Part shown: positions 44,894-52,051 of the stretch, in pieces | Numbering within the stretch: the stretch's first letter is position 1 | Layout of the letters: every line of letters begins with the position of its first letter | Origin: Williamsia herbipolensis | GTDB lineage: Bacteria > Actinomycetota > Actinomycetes > Mycobacteriales > Mycobacteriaceae | NCBI RefSeq assembly: GCF_000964005.1 | Contig: NZ_JXYP01000011.1 | Coordinates: forward strand, 186,001-250,000 | Direction: 5' to 3' | DNA: 64,000 nucleotides | Made by a program: the position numbers and the translations under genes | Notes under the pieces: model-generated | What the model was told of the DNA's origin: nothing | What the model saw: only the letters and a program-made list of their open reading frames with translations | The model's database searches: none

Positions 44894-44923
44894 CTCACAG
44901 GAACCTGCCAGGGTTCTGCCAGC
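44894..44923. promoter_or_regulatory. three 8-bp direct repeats at 11-bp period upstream of the response regulator
   Basis: CTCACAGG (44894-44901), CTGCCAGG (44905-44912) and CTGCCAGC (44916-44923) are in the same phase, one helical turn apart, 34 nt before the response-regulator ATG. This is the usual layout of OmpR/PhoB-family sites. A close copy lies at 48522-48540 before the glycosyltransferase operon, so this is probably the autoregulatory site of the system. Confidence 0.75.
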
Positions 44924-44956
44924 CCCATGTCAGCGCGTACACGGAAGGTGGGCACC

Positions 44957-45655
44957 ATGACTGATCCCGGTGCCCGCGTGCTCGTCGTCGACGACGAGCC
45001 GAACATCCTCGAACTGTTGTCGGTGTCGCTGAAGTTCCAGAACTTCGACGTCGCGACGGCCGCCAACGGTCCCGCCGCCCTCGACAAGGCACGCACCTTC
45101 CGCCCCGACGCCCTCGTGCTCGACGTGATGATGCCCGGCATGGACGGCTTCGGACTGCTGCGTCGGCTGCGCGCCGACGGGATCGAGGCCCCCGCACTGT
45201 TCCTCACCGCGCGGGATTCGATGGAGGACAAGATCAACGGGCTCACCATCGGCGGCGACGACTACGTCACCAAGCCGTTCAGCCTCGAGGAGGTCGTCGC
45301 CCGACTGCGGGTGATCCTGCGTCGTAACGGCTTCGGGGAGAAGCCCGCCGAGCCGACGCGGATCTCGTTCGCCGACATCGAACTCGACGACGACACCCAC
45401 GAGGTGTGGAAGGACGGCGAGCTGGTGTCGCTGTCGCCCACCGAGTTCACCCTGCTGCGCTACTTCATGATCAACGCGGGGACCGTGCTGTCGAAGCCGC
45501 GGATCCTCGACCACGTGTGGAACTACGACTTCGGTGGTGAGGTCAACGTCGTCGAGTCCTACGTGTCGTATCTGCGTCGCAAGGTCGACACCGGCGACAA
45601 ACGCCTCATCCACACCCTGCGGGGCGTCGGGTACGTGATGCGCGAACCTCGATGA
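44957..45655 (+). CDS. OmpR-family response regulator (TrcR/MprA-like)
   Basis: A 232-residue response regulator. The receiver domain has the acidic pair VVDDEPN (Asp12, Asp13), phospho-acceptor Asp56 (LVLDVMMPGMDG), Thr84 and Lys106 (VTKPF). The C-terminal winged helix (about 135-232) has LSPTEFTLLRYFM and VVESYVSYLRRKVD and ends with TLRGVGYVMRE. ATG 44957 has GGAAGG about 9 nt upstream. Its stop overlaps the histidine kinase start (ATGA). The upstream direct repeats suggest positive or negative autoregulation. It is close to TrcR, but the precise orthologue needs a tree. Confidence 0.93.
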   Translation: MTDPGARVLVVDDEPNILELLSVSLKFQNFDVATAANGPAALDKARTFRPDALVLDVMMPGMDGFGLLRRLRADGIEAPALFLTARDSMEDKINGLTIGGDDYVTKPFSLEEVVARLRVILRRNGFGEKPAEPTRISFADIELDDDTHEVWKDGELVSLSPTEFTLLRYFMINAGTVLSKPRILDHVWNYDFGGEVNVVESYVSYLRRKVDTGDKRLIHTLRGVGYVMREPR

Positions 45656-47169
45656 CCGCCCCCGCGCCGGAGGCGCCCCGTCCTACAACCCCGCCGGTCG
45701 CGCCCGAGTCGCCGATCCCGCGCCGTAAACGCGGTGTCCCGCTCCGGGTCTCGCTGGTCGGGCTGATGCTGGTGCTGGTCGCGCTCGGCCTCGTGGTGTC
45801 GGGGGTGTCGGTCACGTCGGCGTTGGAGAACCGCCTGATCGACCGCACCGACAACGGTCTGCGCGGTGCCGCCGAGGGGTGGGCCCGTCCGCGTGACGGC
45901 GACGACCGCGGGCCGTTCGGTCCCTTCGGCCAGAGCGGACAGAGCGGCAGCCCTACCACCGAACGTCGGCCGCCCTCGCCCTACTACGTGATGCTGATCC
46001 GTTCCGACGGGACGACGTTCACCGTCAACGACGTCGGCGGCAGCCCCGACCTGTCCGACCTCTCACGCTTCTCCACCGACCCGGTCACCGTCGACAGCGC
46101 GACCGGATCCGACGTGCGCTGGCGCGTGGTGAAGGTGACCGCGACCAATCCGTCGGGCGTGTCCATCACCTCGGTCGTCGCGATCAAGCTCAACGACGTC
46201 GACGACACCGTCACCCGCCTCATCTGGCTGCAACTCGGTGTCGGGCTCGGTGTGGTGGTCGTCGTGGGCGGCCTCGGGTACCTCCTGGTGCGGACCAGTC
46301 TGCGACCCCTGCGGCGCGTCGAGGAGACCGCGGAGAAGATCGCCGGCGGGGACCTCGACCAGCGCGTCCCGACGTCGCCGCCGAACACCGAGGTCGGCAG
46401 GCTCGCCACCTCACTGAACGTGATGCTGCACCAGATCCAGAACGCCTTCGCCGCCACGGCCGCGTCGGAGGAGCAGGCGCGCAGCTCCGAGGACAAGATG
46501 CGGCGCTTCATCGCCGACGCGAGCCACGAACTGCGCACCCCGCTGACCTCGATCCGCGGGTTCTCCGAGCTCTACCGCCAGGGCGCGATGACCGACACCG
46601 GGCAGTTGATGGCGCGGATCGAGACCGAGGCCGGCCGGATGGGACTGCTCGTGGAGGAGCTGTTGATGCTCGCGCGGCTCGACGCCCAGCGGCCCCTCGA
46701 GCGCGCACAGGTCGACCTGTTGTCGCTGGCGTCGGACTCGGTGCACAGCGCCCGCGCGATGGCGCCCGAGCGGGAGATCGCGCTGCAGGTACTCGACGGC
46801 CCCGGCATCCCCGCGGTTATGGGCGACGCGGCGCGGTTGTCGCAGGTGCTGAGCAACCTGATCACCAACGCGATCCGACACACCCCCGACGACGCGACGA
46901 TCACCGTGCAGATCGGCACCGACGACCGCGACGCGATCATCTCCGTCGTCGACACCGGTCCCGGCCTGGCCCCGGCCGACCGCGCCCGCGTCTTCGAGCG
47001 TTTCTTCCGCGGAGACTCGTCACGACACCGGGACGGCGGCGTCGGGGGCAGTGGTCTCGGGTTGTCGATCGTGGCCGCGCTGGTCGACGCCCACGGCGGC
47101 ACCGTCGGCGTCGACGACACCCCCGGCGGCGGCGCCACCTTCCGCGTCCGCATCCCCCGCGCGGAGTAG
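45652..47169 (+). CDS. sensor histidine kinase
   Basis: A 505-residue membrane kinase: Pro-rich cytoplasmic start, TM1 (about 32-52), an extracytoplasmic sensor of about 150 residues with a Gly/Pro/Gln-rich stretch (FGPFGQSGQSGS), TM2 (about 193-218), HAMP (218-270), HisKA with His292 (ASHELRTPLTSIRG) and HATPase_c (about 395-505: NLITNAIRHTPDD, DTGPGLAP, GGSGLGLSIV). It phosphorylates the response regulator encoded just upstream and overlapping by 4 nt. The signal is not known; the sensor lacks a recognised ligand-binding fold. Confidence 0.94.
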   Translation: MTAPAPEAPRPTTPPVAPESPIPRRKRGVPLRVSLVGLMLVLVALGLVVSGVSVTSALENRLIDRTDNGLRGAAEGWARPRDGDDRGPFGPFGQSGQSGSPTTERRPPSPYYVMLIRSDGTTFTVNDVGGSPDLSDLSRFSTDPVTVDSATGSDVRWRVVKVTATNPSGVSITSVVAIKLNDVDDTVTRLIWLQLGVGLGVVVVVGGLGYLLVRTSLRPLRRVEETAEKIAGGDLDQRVPTSPPNTEVGRLATSLNVMLHQIQNAFAATAASEEQARSSEDKMRRFIADASHELRTPLTSIRGFSELYRQGAMTDTGQLMARIETEAGRMGLLVEELLMLARLDAQRPLERAQVDLLSLASDSVHSARAMAPEREIALQVLDGPGIPAVMGDAARLSQVLSNLITNAIRHTPDDATITVQIGTDDRDAIISVVDTGPGLAPADRARVFERFFRGDSSRHRDGGVGGSGLGLSIVAALVDAHGGTVGVDDTPGGGATFRVRIPRAE

Positions 47170-47272
47170 CTGCCGAGATCGTCCCCGTGACGGGTGTCCG
47201 ACGGCGATCTGCCCTCGGGTGGCGCCCAGGGGGACGATCTCAGCAGCCGATGGCCGGGCCTACGATCGAGCC

Positions 47273-47698
47273 ATGGCAACCGTGTTCAGCATGATCATCA
47301 ACGGCGACATCCCCGGACGCTTCGTCTGGAAGGACGACACGGCCGTCGCGTTCCTCACCATCAACCCCGTCACCCCGGGCCACGTGCTGGTGGTGCCGCG
47401 GGAGGAGATCGACCACTGGGAGCAGGTCGATCCGAGTGTGTTCGCGCATCTCACGGCGGTGTCGCAGACCATCGGCACGGCCACCCGCGACGCGTTCGAC
47501 GCCCCGCGCATGGGTCTGCTGATCGCCGGCCTCGAGGTGCCGCACCTGCACATCCATGTCTTCCCCGCGCACTCACTCGAGACCTTCGATCTCGCGCTGG
47601 CCGAGAAGGACCCCGATCCGGCCGCCCTCGACGACGCCGCGGCGAGGATCCGTGCCGCGCTGCGGTCGGCGGGGCACACCGAGCACGTCGCCGACTGA
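47273..47698 (+). CDS. HIT-family protein
   Basis: A 141-residue histidine-triad nucleotide hydrolase/transferase. The triad is HLHIHVFP (about 89-96); FVWKDDTAVAFLTINPVTPGH is the usual N-terminal signature. Likely an AMP-ester or dinucleotide hydrolase in the cytosol. ATG 47273 has TACGAT at 47261-47266 with a 6-nt gap, giving a leaderless mRNA separate from the kinase gene 103 nt upstream. The next gene starts 1 nt after its stop. Confidence 0.93.
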   Translation: MATVFSMIINGDIPGRFVWKDDTAVAFLTINPVTPGHVLVVPREEIDHWEQVDPSVFAHLTAVSQTIGTATRDAFDAPRMGLLIAGLEVPHLHIHVFPAHSLETFDLALAEKDPDPAALDDAAARIRAALRSAGHTEHVAD

Positions 47699-47699
47699 C

Positions 47700-48506
47700 G
47701 TGGCGCACGCGGTCGACGCCAGGCGTCGCGGAGCCGGCGGCTCGGCCCCGATGTGGGCGGCCGTCGCGGCAGCGGCGGGTGTGGGTTTCGTCGTCGCCCC
47801 GAGCATCGTGGTGGGCGACCCGTATGGCGCCGGGATCACCGGTGGGCGCCGGCTCGCGGTCGCGGCGACCGGTGCTGTCGACGGGTTCCTCGGGCGCCAC
47901 GCGGCGACCGTGTCCGGCCCGCTCGCGGACCTCACCGACTACTGGTCGCAGTACCACTGGGTGAAGGTCGTCTTCGCGATCGCCGCGGTTGTGGCTCTGG
48001 TGGCGCTGGGCCGCCGACTCGTCGCCACGGCCGCACCCACCTCGACCCGTGCCGCACGAGTGTGGTGGGCGGTGGTCGGCGGGGCGCTCAGCCTCGCCGT
48101 GGTCGCCGCCTCGTTGCTCGCCGTCGCCAACGTGCAGGGCGCTCTCGCACCGCTGTCCTCGGCACTGAGCCTGCTGCCCGACGAGTCGACCCGAGCCGCT
48201 GCCGGCGGTGTGATGTCGCGCGGGGCCACCGATCCCGCGGTGGCGACCCTCATCAGCGACTTCGGTCGGTACCACGCGGTTCTCGCGGTGAGCCTCGGTG
48301 TGGTGGTCGCCGCGTTCGCGGCGGTCGCCGTCGTGGCCACCCGACGCGCCCGGAGGGCCGACCGCGGCGGACGGCGGCGTCCGATGGTGGGCGCGTCGGC
48401 CGTGGTGTTCGCGGTGGCCACACTCGCACTCGGTGTGGTGGTCGCGGCCAACATCGGAACCGCGGTGGACCCCGAACCGGCGTTGCGCCTGTTCTTCACC
48501 GGCTGA
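47700..48506 (+). CDS. multi-spanning membrane protein, unknown function
   Basis: A 268-residue protein with about five hydrophobic segments (residues ~17-35, 83-104, 115-140, 190-215, 228-250) separated by charged loops, one containing DEST and a long Ala/Val-rich helix. I do not recognise a family; it may be a small actinobacterial integral membrane protein. GTG 47700 comes one base after the HIT stop, indicating coupling. It ends 15 nt before the direct-repeat element of the glycosyltransferase operon, so that element lies between two genes of the same strand and likely defines a new transcription unit. Confidence 0.65.
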   Translation: MAHAVDARRRGAGGSAPMWAAVAAAAGVGFVVAPSIVVGDPYGAGITGGRRLAVAATGAVDGFLGRHAATVSGPLADLTDYWSQYHWVKVVFAIAAVVALVALGRRLVATAAPTSTRAARVWWAVVGGALSLAVVAASLLAVANVQGALAPLSSALSLLPDESTRAAAGGVMSRGATDPAVATLISDFGRYHAVLAVSLGVVVAAFAAVAVVATRRARRADRGGRRRPMVGASAVVFAVATLALGVVVAANIGTAVDPEPALRLFFTG

Positions 48507-48521
48507 TCGGGAAACCCCTCG

Positions 48522-48540
48522 CTCACAGGAAGCTGACAGG
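48522..48540. promoter_or_regulatory. direct repeats matching the response-regulator site
   Basis: CTCACAGG (48522-48529) and CTGACAGG (48533-48540) repeat the 44894 element with the same 11-bp period; over 20 nt (48521-48540 against 44893-44912) 18 positions agree. It lies 45 nt before the GT2-GtrA start. A degenerate third copy may follow at 48544. Confidence 0.75.
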
Positions 48541-48584
48541 TCGGCCGCAGAATCGAGCCAGCCGACTCGATCAGAGTCTCCTGT

Positions 48585-49889
48585 ATGACAGCAGACACCA
48601 TCGATCGGTCGGGCGACGCGACGTCTCCCGAGCCGACTCGCGCTCCCGAGATGACCGTCGTGGTCGACCGGACCCACCCGACCCCCGAGCTCGACGTGGT
48701 GGTGCCGGTCTACAACGAGGAAGCCGACCTCGAGACCTGCATCGTGCGGCTCGCCGAGCACCTGCGGACCCGGGTGCCGTACTCCGCGCGGATCACGATC
48801 GCCGACAACGCCAGCACCGACTCGACCCTGGCCGTCGGTGTGGAGCTCGCGCAGACGATGGAGAACGTCCGGATCGTCCACCTCGACGCGAAGGGGCGCG
48901 GCCGGGCACTGAACGCGGTGTGGAGCGAGAGCGACGCGGCCGTCGTCGCCTACTGCGACGTCGACCTGTCGACCGACCTCAACGCGCTGATGCCGTTGGT
49001 GGCGCCACTGCTGTCGGGTCATTCCGACGTCGCCATCGGGTCACGGCTGTCGCGGTCGTCGCGGGTGGTCCGCGGCGCGAAGCGCGAGTTCATCTCGCGC
49101 AGTTACAACCTCATCCTGCGGACCACCATGGGCGCGAAGTTCTCCGACGCCCAGTGCGGGTTCAAGGCCATGCGGGCCGACGTCGCGCGGGCGGTCCTGC
49201 CCTACGTCGCCGACACCGGCTGGTTCTTCGACACCGAGCTGCTGGTGCTGGCCGAGCGCATCGGGCTCCGCATCGCCGAGGTGCCCGTCGACTGGATCGA
49301 CGACCCCAACTCGAAGGTCGACATCGTCAAGACCGCGACCGAGGACCTCAAGGGTTGCTGGCGGGTCGGTCGCGCGCTGGCGAACGGTGATCTGCCGGTG
49401 GTCGAGCTCCGACGCAGTCTGGGGCGCAACCGTTTCGACGACCCGCAGGTGACCGGTGTGCCGCGAGGCATGGTCGGTCAGTTGGTCCGCTTCGCGGTGA
49501 TCGGCGTGATCTCGACCGTCGCCTACGCCGTTCTGTATCTCATGCTGCACTCGCTGATCGGCGCACAGGCGGCCAACTTCACCGCCCTGCTGATCACCGC
49601 GGTGTTCAACACCGCCGCCAATCGCGCGTTCACCTTCGGCATCAAGGGACGCGACGGCGCCGCACGACACCACATGCAGGGCATCGCGGTGTTCGTGTTC
49701 GGGTGGGCACTCACCGCCGGATCGCTGTGGGCGCTGCACGCGTTCGCCCCCGACGCCGGCAAGCACATCGAGTTGCTCGTCCTCATCGTCGCCAATCTCG
49801 TTGCCACCCTGACCCGTTTCGTCGCGTTGCGCTGGGTGTTCCGCTCCGCGCACCCGACCACCGAACTCGAGAGTGCAGCCACCGCATGA
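48585..49889 (+). CDS. bifunctional family 2 glycosyltransferase / GtrA-like protein
   Basis: A 434-residue fusion. Residues about 35-270 form a GT2 domain with VVVPVYNEEADL, DNASTDSTL, CDVDLSTDL and GSRLS, similar to dolichol-phosphate mannose/polyprenyl-phosphate glycosyltransferases. Residues about 300-425 form a GtrA domain with four membrane helices thought to flip lipid-linked sugars. The pair can make and flip a polyprenyl-phosphate sugar for the ArnT-like enzyme encoded immediately after (4-nt ATGA overlap). The start ATG 48585 is 45 nt after the direct repeats shared with the two-component system, suggesting envelope-stress control. Confidence 0.93.
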   Translation: MTADTIDRSGDATSPEPTRAPEMTVVVDRTHPTPELDVVVPVYNEEADLETCIVRLAEHLRTRVPYSARITIADNASTDSTLAVGVELAQTMENVRIVHLDAKGRGRALNAVWSESDAAVVAYCDVDLSTDLNALMPLVAPLLSGHSDVAIGSRLSRSSRVVRGAKREFISRSYNLILRTTMGAKFSDAQCGFKAMRADVARAVLPYVADTGWFFDTELLVLAERIGLRIAEVPVDWIDDPNSKVDIVKTATEDLKGCWRVGRALANGDLPVVELRRSLGRNRFDDPQVTGVPRGMVGQLVRFAVIGVISTVAYAVLYLMLHSLIGAQAANFTALLITAVFNTAANRAFTFGIKGRDGAARHHMQGIAVFVFGWALTAGSLWALHAFAPDAGKHIELLVLIVANLVATLTRFVALRWVFRSAHPTTELESAATA

Positions 49890-52051
49890 GCACACTGTCC
49901 GACATCCCCTCGGCCCACGCCGACGACGTCACCGACGCCCCCCGCACCGACGGGGGGCGTCGGCCCACGTCGGTGGTGCGCGACCGTATCGGTCTCGCCG
50001 TACTGCTCGTCGGCACGGCCGTGCTGTACCTGTCGAACCTGGCCGCCAACGGCTACGCCAACTCCTTCTACTCCGCCGCCATCCAGGCCGGGTCGGTGTC
50101 GTGGAAGGCGTGGTTCTTCGGGTCGTCCGACGCCGCGAACTCCATCACCGTCGACAAACCGCCCATGTCGCTGTGGATCCCGGGTATCGCGGTCCGGATC
50201 TTCGGCCTGAACTCGTGGTCCATCCTGGTGCCCGAGGTCCTCATGGGGGTGGCCTCGGTGGCCCTGCTGTACCTGATCGTGAAGAAATACGTGGGCGCCA
50301 CGGCCGGCCTCCTCGCCGGTGCCACCCTGGCGCTGACACCCGTTGCAGCCCTGATGTTCCGCTTCAACAACCCCGACGCACTTCTGGTGCTGCTGATGAT
50401 CGCCGCGGTGTGGGCGACGCTCAAGGCCATCGAGGACGGCCGCATCCGCTGGATGATCCTCACCGGTGTGTTCGTCGGATTCGGGTTCCTCACCAAGCAG
50501 CTGCAGGTGTTCCTGGTGATCCCGCCGCTGGCCCTGACCTACCTCGCGTTCGGACAGCACACGTGGATCAAGCGACTCGGCCACCTGGTCGCCGCACTGG
50601 CCGCAATGGCTGTCAGTGCCGGCTGGTGGGTTCTCGCGGTCACCCTGTGGCCGAAGGACTCGCGGCCCTACATCGGTGGCTCGCAACACAATTCGATCCT
50701 CGAGCTGACGTTCGGGTACAACGGCTTCGGCCGACTCACCGGCAACGAGACCGGCTCCACCGGCGGCGGCGGCGCACGGCGCGCGACGTCGGAGGCCGCC
50801 CAGGGTGCGTTCGGTGCCGGGTTCCCCGGCGGCGCGGGCGGCCCGGGTGGCCGCGGCGGCATCTGGGGCGAGACCGGGTTCTTCCGCATGTTCCAGCCCG
50901 AACAGGGTGGACAGATCGGGTGGCTGATCCCCACCGCGCTGATCCTCGGTGTCGCCGCCCTCGTGCTGGCGGGACGCGCGGCGCGCACGAACACCACGCG
51001 GGCCCTGGTGGCGGTCATGCTGCTCTGGCTGCTCACGACGGCGGTCACGTTCAGCTACATGTCGGGCATCTTCCACGCGTACTACACGGTCGCTCTGGCC
51101 CCGGCGATCGCCGGACTCATCGGCGCCGGGGGAGTGCTCTGCTGGCGTGAACGCGACCGACTCTGGGTGCGACTGGTGCTCGCGGCCGCACTCGTCGTCA
51201 CCGGCGTCATGTCCTTCGTCCTGCTCAACCGCTCGTCGGACTTCGTGCCGTGGCTCAAGGTCGTCGTGGTGGTTCTCGCGGTGCTCGCCGCGCTCGGGGT
51301 GCTCGTCACGCGCATCCCGCGGATCGCGGCGGTGGTCGCCGCGGTGGCGATCGTCATGGGTCTCGCGGGACCGACGGCGTACGCGATCGACACCGTCGCG
51401 ACCGCGAAGAGCGGCTCCATCATCAGTGCCGGCCCGCAGGTCAAGGGCGGGTTCGGGCCGGGCGGCATGGGCGGACGTCGCGGCGGCCAACGCGGCGCAT
51501 TCGGCCCCGGCGCCTTCGGTGGCTTCGGTGGTCAGGGCCAGGGCCCCGGCGGTCAGACTCCGGGAGGTCAGGTGCGGGGTGGTCAGACGCCGCCCGGCAT
51601 GACCCCCGGCGGGGCGAACCAGGGCGGCGGCACGGCCGCGCGCGCCGAGGCCTTCGGCGGCATGGGCATGGGCGGTCCCGGTGGCGGTCTGCTCGAGGGC
51701 TCGAAGCCGACGGCCGAGATGGTCGACCTGCTCGAGAACCACGCCTCGGACTACACCTGGGTCGCGGCGGCCATCGGGTCCAACTCCGCGTCGGGGTATC
51801 AGCTCGCCACGCAGAAGCCTGTCATGCCGATCGGCGGGTTCAACGGCAGCGATCCGTCGCCCACGCTCGCGCAGTTCCAGCAGTACGTGCGCGACGGGAA
51901 GATCCACTACTTCATCGGTGGTGGCCGGATGGGTGGCGGCATGAACGCCGAGGGGACGGCCACGGCCATCAGCGAGTGGGTCACCGCGCACTACACCGCG
52001 AAGACGGTCGGCTCGGTGACGCTCTACGACCTCACCGCACCGAAGGGCTGA
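49886..52051 (+). CDS. ArnT-like GT39/GT83 membrane glycosyltransferase
   Basis: A 721-residue polytopic membrane protein of the PMT/ArnT (GT-C) type. About eleven to twelve helices occupy residues 30-510; the conserved first-loop signature YSAAIQAGSVSWKAWFFGS and the segment ITVDKPPMSLW with its Asp-Lys follow the family. An extracytoplasmic loop and the C-terminal half contain unusual Gly/Gln/Pro-rich tracts (around 290-330 and 530-610), then a globular end with IGGFNGSDPSPT. It likely transfers a polyprenyl-phosphate sugar onto an envelope acceptor. ATG 49886 overlaps the GT2 stop by 4 nt. Confidence 0.92.
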   Translation: MSTLSDIPSAHADDVTDAPRTDGGRRPTSVVRDRIGLAVLLVGTAVLYLSNLAANGYANSFYSAAIQAGSVSWKAWFFGSSDAANSITVDKPPMSLWIPGIAVRIFGLNSWSILVPEVLMGVASVALLYLIVKKYVGATAGLLAGATLALTPVAALMFRFNNPDALLVLLMIAAVWATLKAIEDGRIRWMILTGVFVGFGFLTKQLQVFLVIPPLALTYLAFGQHTWIKRLGHLVAALAAMAVSAGWWVLAVTLWPKDSRPYIGGSQHNSILELTFGYNGFGRLTGNETGSTGGGGARRATSEAAQGAFGAGFPGGAGGPGGRGGIWGETGFFRMFQPEQGGQIGWLIPTALILGVAALVLAGRAARTNTTRALVAVMLLWLLTTAVTFSYMSGIFHAYYTVALAPAIAGLIGAGGVLCWRERDRLWVRLVLAAALVVTGVMSFVLLNRSSDFVPWLKVVVVVLAVLAALGVLVTRIPRIAAVVAAVAIVMGLAGPTAYAIDTVATAKSGSIISAGPQVKGGFGPGGMGGRRGGQRGAFGPGAFGGFGGQGQGPGGQTPGGQVRGGQTPPGMTPGGANQGGGTAARAEAFGGMGMGGPGGGLLEGSKPTAEMVDLLENHASDYTWVAAAIGSNSASGYQLATQKPVMPIGGFNGSDPSPTLAQFQQYVRDGKIHYFIGGGRMGGGMNAEGTATAISEWVTAHYTAKTVGSVTLYDLTAPKG

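Follow-up and report, generated by a model that had tools for sequence, protein, structure and literature searches.

Why do a response regulator gene and a nearby glycosyltransferase operon of Williamsia herbipolensis carry the same direct repeat ahead of their start codons, and which regulator reads it? Both lie on the forward strand of a stretch of 64,000 nucleotides (contig NZ_JXYP01000011.1, positions 186,001 to 250,000), here called the window, whose own numbering is used throughout. The answer that we favour, with a probability of roughly 0.85, is that the regulator is PhoP and that it would both autoregulate its own gene and directly activate the operon, which appears to encode a transmembrane glycosylation system made of a GT2-GtrA glycosyltransferase and a YkcB-type GT-C glycosyltransferase, through predicted PhoP operators. 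That the regulator might control itself together with a lipid-linked sugar operon had been suggested in an original prediction made from the letters of the DNA, and the conserved arrays described below are comparative evidence in its favour. The features on which the argument turns are the following.

44895..44934, + strand: predicted operator of the phoP promoter, with 7-bp half-sites TCACAGG, TGCCAGG, TGCCAGC and TGTCAGC at 44895, 44906, 44917 and 44928 (11-bp period)
44944..44949, + strand: putative -10 element GAAGGT of the phoP promoter, 7 bp 5′ of the ATG, placed from the layout of the promoter profile, with A and T at the conserved places
44957..45655, + strand: phoP, encoding an OmpR/PhoB-family response regulator, by sequence the orthologue of Mycobacterium tuberculosis PhoP; ATG 62 bp from the first half-site
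48523..48562, + strand: predicted operator of the GT2 promoter, with half-sites TCACAGG, TGACAGG, CCGCAGA and AGCCAGC at 48523, 48534, 48545 and 48556 (11-bp period)
48572..48577, + strand: putative -10 element CAGAGT of the GT2 promoter, 7 bp 5′ of the ATG, likewise placed from the layout
48585..49889, + strand: gene for a glycosyltransferase of the polyprenyl-phosphate sugar synthase type in which GT2 and a GtrA/DPMS membrane domain are fused; its ATG lies 62 bp from the first half-site
49886..52051, + strand: gene for a YkcB-type GT-C glycosyltransferase (PMT_2 + YkcB_C), its start overlapping the GT2 stop

Read directly from the sequence, the first repeat (44894-44912) is CTCACAGG-AAC-CTGCCAGG and the second (48522-48540) is CTCACAGG-AAG-CTGACAGG; 17 of their 19 positions are identical, which becomes 18 of 20 when the G just before them is counted, and a third repeat unit up to 44923 is present at the first site. 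These positions, the exact 11-bp period and the 18 of 20 matches were the starting point of the original prediction and are borne out by the sequence, and its view of the repeats as a direct-repeat operator of the OmpR family is supported by the match to the published PhoP box and by comparison with relatives. What it had not seen is that each promoter holds four half-sites, again with an exact 11-bp period, such that the CAG cores fall at 44898, 44909, 44920 and 44931 in the first promoter and at 48526, 48537, 48548 and 48559 in the second. An operator of just two or three repeats was ruled out, since a profile of 49 promoters shows four.

The 44957-45655 product carries a receiver and a Trans_reg_C domain (Pfam scan), and its best matches in the PDB are to M. 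tuberculosis PhoP (E 1e-123 over 231 residues), the next-best other regulator among solved proteins being PrrA at E 2e-51, with MtrA and RegX3 also far behind. The protein is 94% identical to the PhoP of Williamsia deligens, it is the one match to PhoP at E 1e-95 in its own genome, and the DNA-contact residues of helix 8 and the wing that are named in the available text of PMC4832192 are identical in it, as counted on an alignment. Judged by sequence, then, the response regulator is an orthologue of M. tuberculosis PhoP. The label TrcR/MprA-like, under which it was originally predicted, is wrong and was rejected, because the solved-protein matches favour PhoP and a separate MprA-like gene, recognised by eye and 49% identical to PhoP, exists at G000:C4 (L248); TrcR was not compared directly. 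Directly 5′ of that MprA-like regulator stands TCTCAGC-N4-TCTCAGC (G000:C4:26638-26655), probably its own autoregulatory site. According to the available text of PMC4832192, PhoP binds TCACAGC direct repeats with a strict 4-bp spacer, cooperatively and in an arrangement extendable to trimers and tetramers, and PhoR of Corynebacterium glutamicum is described in the available text of PMC3353115 as binding CCTGTGAAaatCCTGTGAA, a repeat of this kind when read on the opposite strand. The repeats of the window fit the published PhoP box in both the 7-bp motif and the 4-bp spacer.

Does the published consensus, taken alone, find this repeat before the same gene in other species? This is the independent test on the GT2 genes, whereas the four-half-site score used further below was designed after the alignments had been viewed. 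For 100 of the 112 GT2-GtrA places in the family, the region from -250 to +90 was scored against the TCACAGC repeat, and with at least 11 of 14 matches at a period of 11 on the coding strand, 62 of the 100 genes were found. At the same threshold, periods of 8-10 and 12-14 gave 2-7 of 100, the opposite strand gave 0-3, and ten shuffles of the GT2 regions gave a mean of 2.4 and a maximum of 5. Among 200 sampled permutations of the half-site letters (mean 3.0), one reached 62 and is taken to be the consensus itself. For the phoP promoters of the named loci (window included), the corresponding count was 25 of 59, other periods giving at most 7.

The promoters share a layout that extends well past the repeat. 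Aligned on it, 49 non-redundant promoters show four half-sites in steps of 11 bp, of which the last two retain mainly AG. An A at position 50 and a T at position 54 (A50+T54, the pair assigned to the -10 element) follow in 44 of the 49, and the ATG stands at +62 in 35 promoters and at +61 in another 8. A score that uses the half-sites only (maximum 18, pass at 14 or more) was passed by 89 of the 100 GT2 promoters, and among these 89, A50+T54 occurs in 86, the same number as have an ATG or GTG at 61-63 (71 with ATG at 62, 11 with ATG at 61). At the phoP promoters of the GT2 loci the figures are similar: 51 of 52 score at least 14, 48 have A50+T54 and 51 have an ATG or GTG at 61-63. Controls at this threshold gave 0/100 for shuffled GT2 regions, 5/100 for the GT2 reverse strand and 1/52 for the phoP reverse strand. 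When 1.2 Mb of loci were read on both strands, sites scoring at least 16 numbered 135 at GT2/phoP promoters and 4 elsewhere, with the -10 pair plus a start codon at 120 of the former and 1 of the latter; within the window, the only two sites at the full 18/18 are the phoP and GT2 promoters, both with the -10 pair and the start codon at +62. Because the putative -10 element ends so close to the start codon that there is no room for a leader, leaderless transcripts are predicted. Such transcripts are common in M. tuberculosis, with a TANNNT -10 element and no -35 motif found, according to the available text of PMC3898074.

The layout is also kept where the GT2 gene is remote from phoP, so that it is not mere linkage. 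A close phoP (at least 70% identical) lies in the fetched stretch in 55 of the 89 positive GT2 loci and in none of the other 34, of which 6 have phoR at the stretch edge and 28 have neither gene. For these 28, phoP is 9-16 kb off in 6, on another contig in 14 and on the same contig at a distance of at least 0.6 Mb in 8; box-bearing GT2 genes remote from phoP thus number 22 of 89. At the level of whole genomes, PhoP is found at E 1e-95 in 94 of 95 family genomes with GT2 versus 33 of 56 without it, and the one GT2 genome outside the 94 (G061) has an 82% PhoP match in its GT2 locus. The box recurs, too, at two groups of YkcB genes of the genus that lie away from phoP and whose members in the W. 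herbipolensis genome are PMT_2 + YkcB_C proteins (Pfam). All seven genes of the type C group carry it, and these have a GTG at +61 to +63. Seven of the eight type B genes carry it too, and the eighth has a site at G006:C3:205891, about 1.8 kb 5′ of the YkcB_C match, where the gene should start. In type B the distance from the first half-site to the ATG is about 104-107 bp and a GGAGG precedes the ATG, so that transcripts with a leader are predicted for these genes. Further afield, a class-level sample covered 40 loci of other families, drawn from the 69 genomes that gave a match. The GT2 promoter reaches a score of 14 or more in 28 of the 40, against 2 on the reverse strand, and 26 of the 28 have A50+T54. 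In 31 of the 40 loci GT2 has a PhoP-like regulator, whether orthologue or paralogue, in its stretch; this regulator is 53-60% identical in 27, and 27 of the 31 regulator promoters pass the score (reverse strand 2), with slightly different half-sites (GCACAGC, TCTCAGG).

Several results weigh against this reading of the locus. The published-consensus test is noisier at a threshold of 10/14, with 77 of 100 genes at period 11, 13-40 at other periods and 18 on average in shuffles; the four-half-site counts are not independent, the score having been set post hoc, and they serve to illustrate specificity. The 59 phoP promoters of the named loci extend beyond the family, and of these 48 pass the score but only 31 have A50+T54. 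The first T of TANNNT is absent from the -10 elements. Fourteen of the 22 remote GT2 genes count as remote by contig difference alone, and three of the fourteen lie near a contig end. A second GT2-GtrA/YkcB pair of the genus (L136-L140 and, in the W. herbipolensis genome, G000:C8:82562-85719, L141) scores below 14 at all six loci and accounts for 6 of the 11 GT2 negatives; it is at the same time a natural negative control. Two glycosyltransferase genes of Mycobacterium massiliense that may be this GT2/YkcB pair, MAB_0926/0927, rise together with phoP in phoR mutants, but the printed table of genes with lower expression in the phoPR knock-out at pH 5.7 does not list them, as far as the available text of PMC10715180 goes. 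Finally, looser two-half-site patterns are not enriched in the W. herbipolensis genome, at 15 matches versus 25 for the backward pattern, nor in eight genomes of the genus summed, at 44 versus 53 (6 versus 2 in the W. herbipolensis genome).

The bare two-half-site motif was accordingly rejected as a genome-wide predictor. The stricter pattern CTNNCAGGNNNCTNNCAGG has two matches in the 4.74-Mb genome, which are exactly these two promoters, with one match for the backward pattern, and across the eight genomes of the genus it has 7 versus 4 backward. The original prediction had staked itself on conservation in related species and on a motif whose frequency in the genome is not that of chance; the shared operator is conserved in relatives, whereas the loose motif occurs at random genomic frequency. 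The signal above chance lies in the position before the same genes across species and not in how rare the bare motif is: the full promoter layout is diagnostic, the repeat by itself is not.

The regulator is a PhoP orthologue, and the arrays keep one layout and turn up again at related genes, remote GT2 genes and two YkcB groups included; from this we infer that PhoP binds these promoters and activates them, with transcription starting at the start codon. In the mechanism that we propose, phosphorylated PhoP would bind the four 7-bp half-sites, spaced 11 bp apart, before phoP and before the GT2-GtrA/ykcB operon. In each array the promoter-distal pair closely resembles the PhoP consensus in print, while the proximal pair is degenerate and would cover the place of the -35 box, the array ending 9 bp before the -10-like element, so that PhoP as an activator might stand in for the -35 contact on a presumably leaderless transcript. 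The GT2 enzyme would then make a polyprenyl-phosphate sugar, the GtrA part would carry or flip the sugar-lipid, and YkcB would transfer the sugar to an envelope acceptor outside the membrane.

Operators of the OmpR family are alike, and the MprA-like gene (by eye) in the same genome is preceded at close range by a TCTCAGC repeat with the same period, which leaves some room for a different regulator of the family (MprA, MtrA, RegX3 or PrrA) to use the repeats, the nearness of phoP being incidental. We consider this quite unlikely, given that the half-sites match the solved PhoP motif (available text of PMC4832192), that the same array stands before phoP itself, whose product is nearest to PhoP among solved regulators, and that at the class level it is again a PhoP-like regulator, mostly with the array, that shares the stretch with GT2 in 31 of 40 loci. 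A reading in which both repeats are local duplicates or chance likenesses, without function, can point to the background frequency of bare two-half-site matches; it is contradicted by conservation, the 11-bp period and the fixed distance to the start codon being kept across genera, remote GT2 genes included, and by the 4 background sites set against 135 promoter sites, and we regard it as highly improbable.

The identity of the regulator could also be right and the sign wrong: PhoP might bind the array and repress, with the proximal half-sites overlapping the core promoter and blocking RNA polymerase. Half-sites 3 and 4 do lie over the -35 and spacer region. No -35 consensus is evident beside the half-sites in the promoter profile, however, and the 9-bp gap to the -10 element is like the activator layout of the pho boxes of Escherichia coli. 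In M. massiliense, PhoP increases the activity of the phoP promoter 1.5-fold in a reporter assay (available text of PMC10715180), and repression seems on balance unlikely.

Between the two promoters, the window holds three further genes.

45652..47169, + strand: phoR, encoding a sensor histidine kinase (HAMP, HisKA, HATPase_c), its start overlapping the phoP stop
47267..47698, + strand: gene for a HIT-domain protein, which adjoins phoPR in many relatives too
47691..48506, + strand: gene for a membrane protein with no Pfam match, start codon approximate; tblastn finds it in 3 of 8 loci of the genus Williamsia (L126-L133)

In many relatives phoR lies 3′ of phoP and the HIT gene is close by. PhoP-box-like repeats are seen at other genes as well. 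One stands at G000:C47:176510-176528 (L246) in the W. herbipolensis genome, 5′ of a gene for an Acyl_transf_3 membrane acyltransferase (Pfam), and similar-looking genes (by eye) have such a repeat in three other Williamsia genomes (L285, L279, L280), so that this gene is a possible further envelope target of PhoP. In some Williamsia genomes there are repeats of this kind near small secreted-looking proteins (L270, L271, L275-L277; by eye) and near a rho-looking gene (L273, L274; by eye). A second GT2-GtrA clade, 57-64% identical, occurs in mycobacteria-type genomes (L224, L225, L260-L266), where the repeats are often of the CATAGC type, and in L224 and L225 a PhoP-like regulator (54%) is close to it, possibly a parallel regulator-glycosylation pair. 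Of the 22 Firmicutes loci L061-L082, nine (L063, L064, L067, L068, L070-L072, L077 and L082) have a YkcB homologue and a regulator of 44-49% identity no more than about 10 kb apart.

PhoPR is a much studied virulence regulator of mycobacteria. A target that shares the promoter plan of phoP across genera, often beside phoPR, points to envelope glycosylation as a core output. The PhoP branch in Actinomycetes may have had the control of surface glycosylation as its ancestral core, regulator and GT2-GtrA/YkcB operon having kept one four-half-site, presumably leaderless promoter plan class-wide and the virulence regulon having come later, in lineages without the glycosylation operon; we put this forward tentatively, the latter part being drawn from the lack of a GT2 match in M. 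colombiense (M. tuberculosis itself was not checked). At E 1e-60, a GT2 match is absent from 10 of 24 named genomes, M. colombiense among them. The promoter signature can be used to find further actinobacterial targets, and it makes the function of the YkcB family testable via the regulator. The PhoP box, an autoregulated OmpR-family regulator and YkcBC-type glycosylation are all of kinds already known. A link between PhoP and GT2-GtrA/YkcB in actinobacteria was not found in the open-licence literature (titles and abstract starts, among the matches listed), and within the same bounds neither the GT2-GtrA/YkcB target nor its promoter plan or depth was found in print.

How, then, does the locus compare with systems already described? 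Among solved proteins, the GT2 protein resembles polyprenyl-phosphate sugar synthases, namely DPMS, the ArnC type and sll0501 (a GtrB), and for the second protein ArnT is the sole solved relative, at E 0.01. GT2, GtrA part and GT-C (PMT_2 + YkcB_C) in adjacent genes (Pfam scan) make up a YkcBC-type arrangement, and together GT2-GtrA and YkcB look like the transmembrane glycosylation system of PMC8035078. The multi-component systems described in the available text of that paper, and ArnC/ArnT, share the GT2 lipid-linked sugar synthase, the GtrA part and the PMT_2 GT-C, whereas in W. herbipolensis GtrA is fused to GT2. The ykcBC operon of Bacillus subtilis, which belongs to the YclJ and YrkP regulons and has no known function in the available texts of PMC5836110, PMC10128005 and PMC8035078, is likewise an operon of YkcC (GT2) and YkcB (GT-C) under two-component regulators; these are distant ones, however, and in the available text of PMC8035078 the YkcC flippase is listed as unknown, with no GtrA fusion described.

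On the side of the regulator, C. glutamicum PhoRS, as presented in the available text of PMC3353115, is of the OmpR type and positively autoregulated, and its 8-bp tandem repeat with a 3-bp linker is the same motif on the other strand, but unlike the system considered here it controls phosphate-starvation genes; a GT2-GtrA match at E 1e-60 was found in 0 of 3 corynebacterial genomes searched. The PhoPR of M. tuberculosis and of M. abscessus/massiliense comes closest, with an orthologous regulator, the same DNA-contact residues and autoregulation via its own promoter (available texts of PMC4832192 and PMC10715180). The PhoPR-dependent genes named there are redox, whiB3, ESX and fatty-acid genes, and the GT2-GtrA/YkcB operon is not among the targets that these texts describe. 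The direct repeat with a 4-bp spacer is common to M. tuberculosis (available text of PMC4832192) and W. herbipolensis, and what marks W. herbipolensis out from the mycobacterial PhoPR is the array of four half-sites at a fixed distance to a predicted leaderless start.

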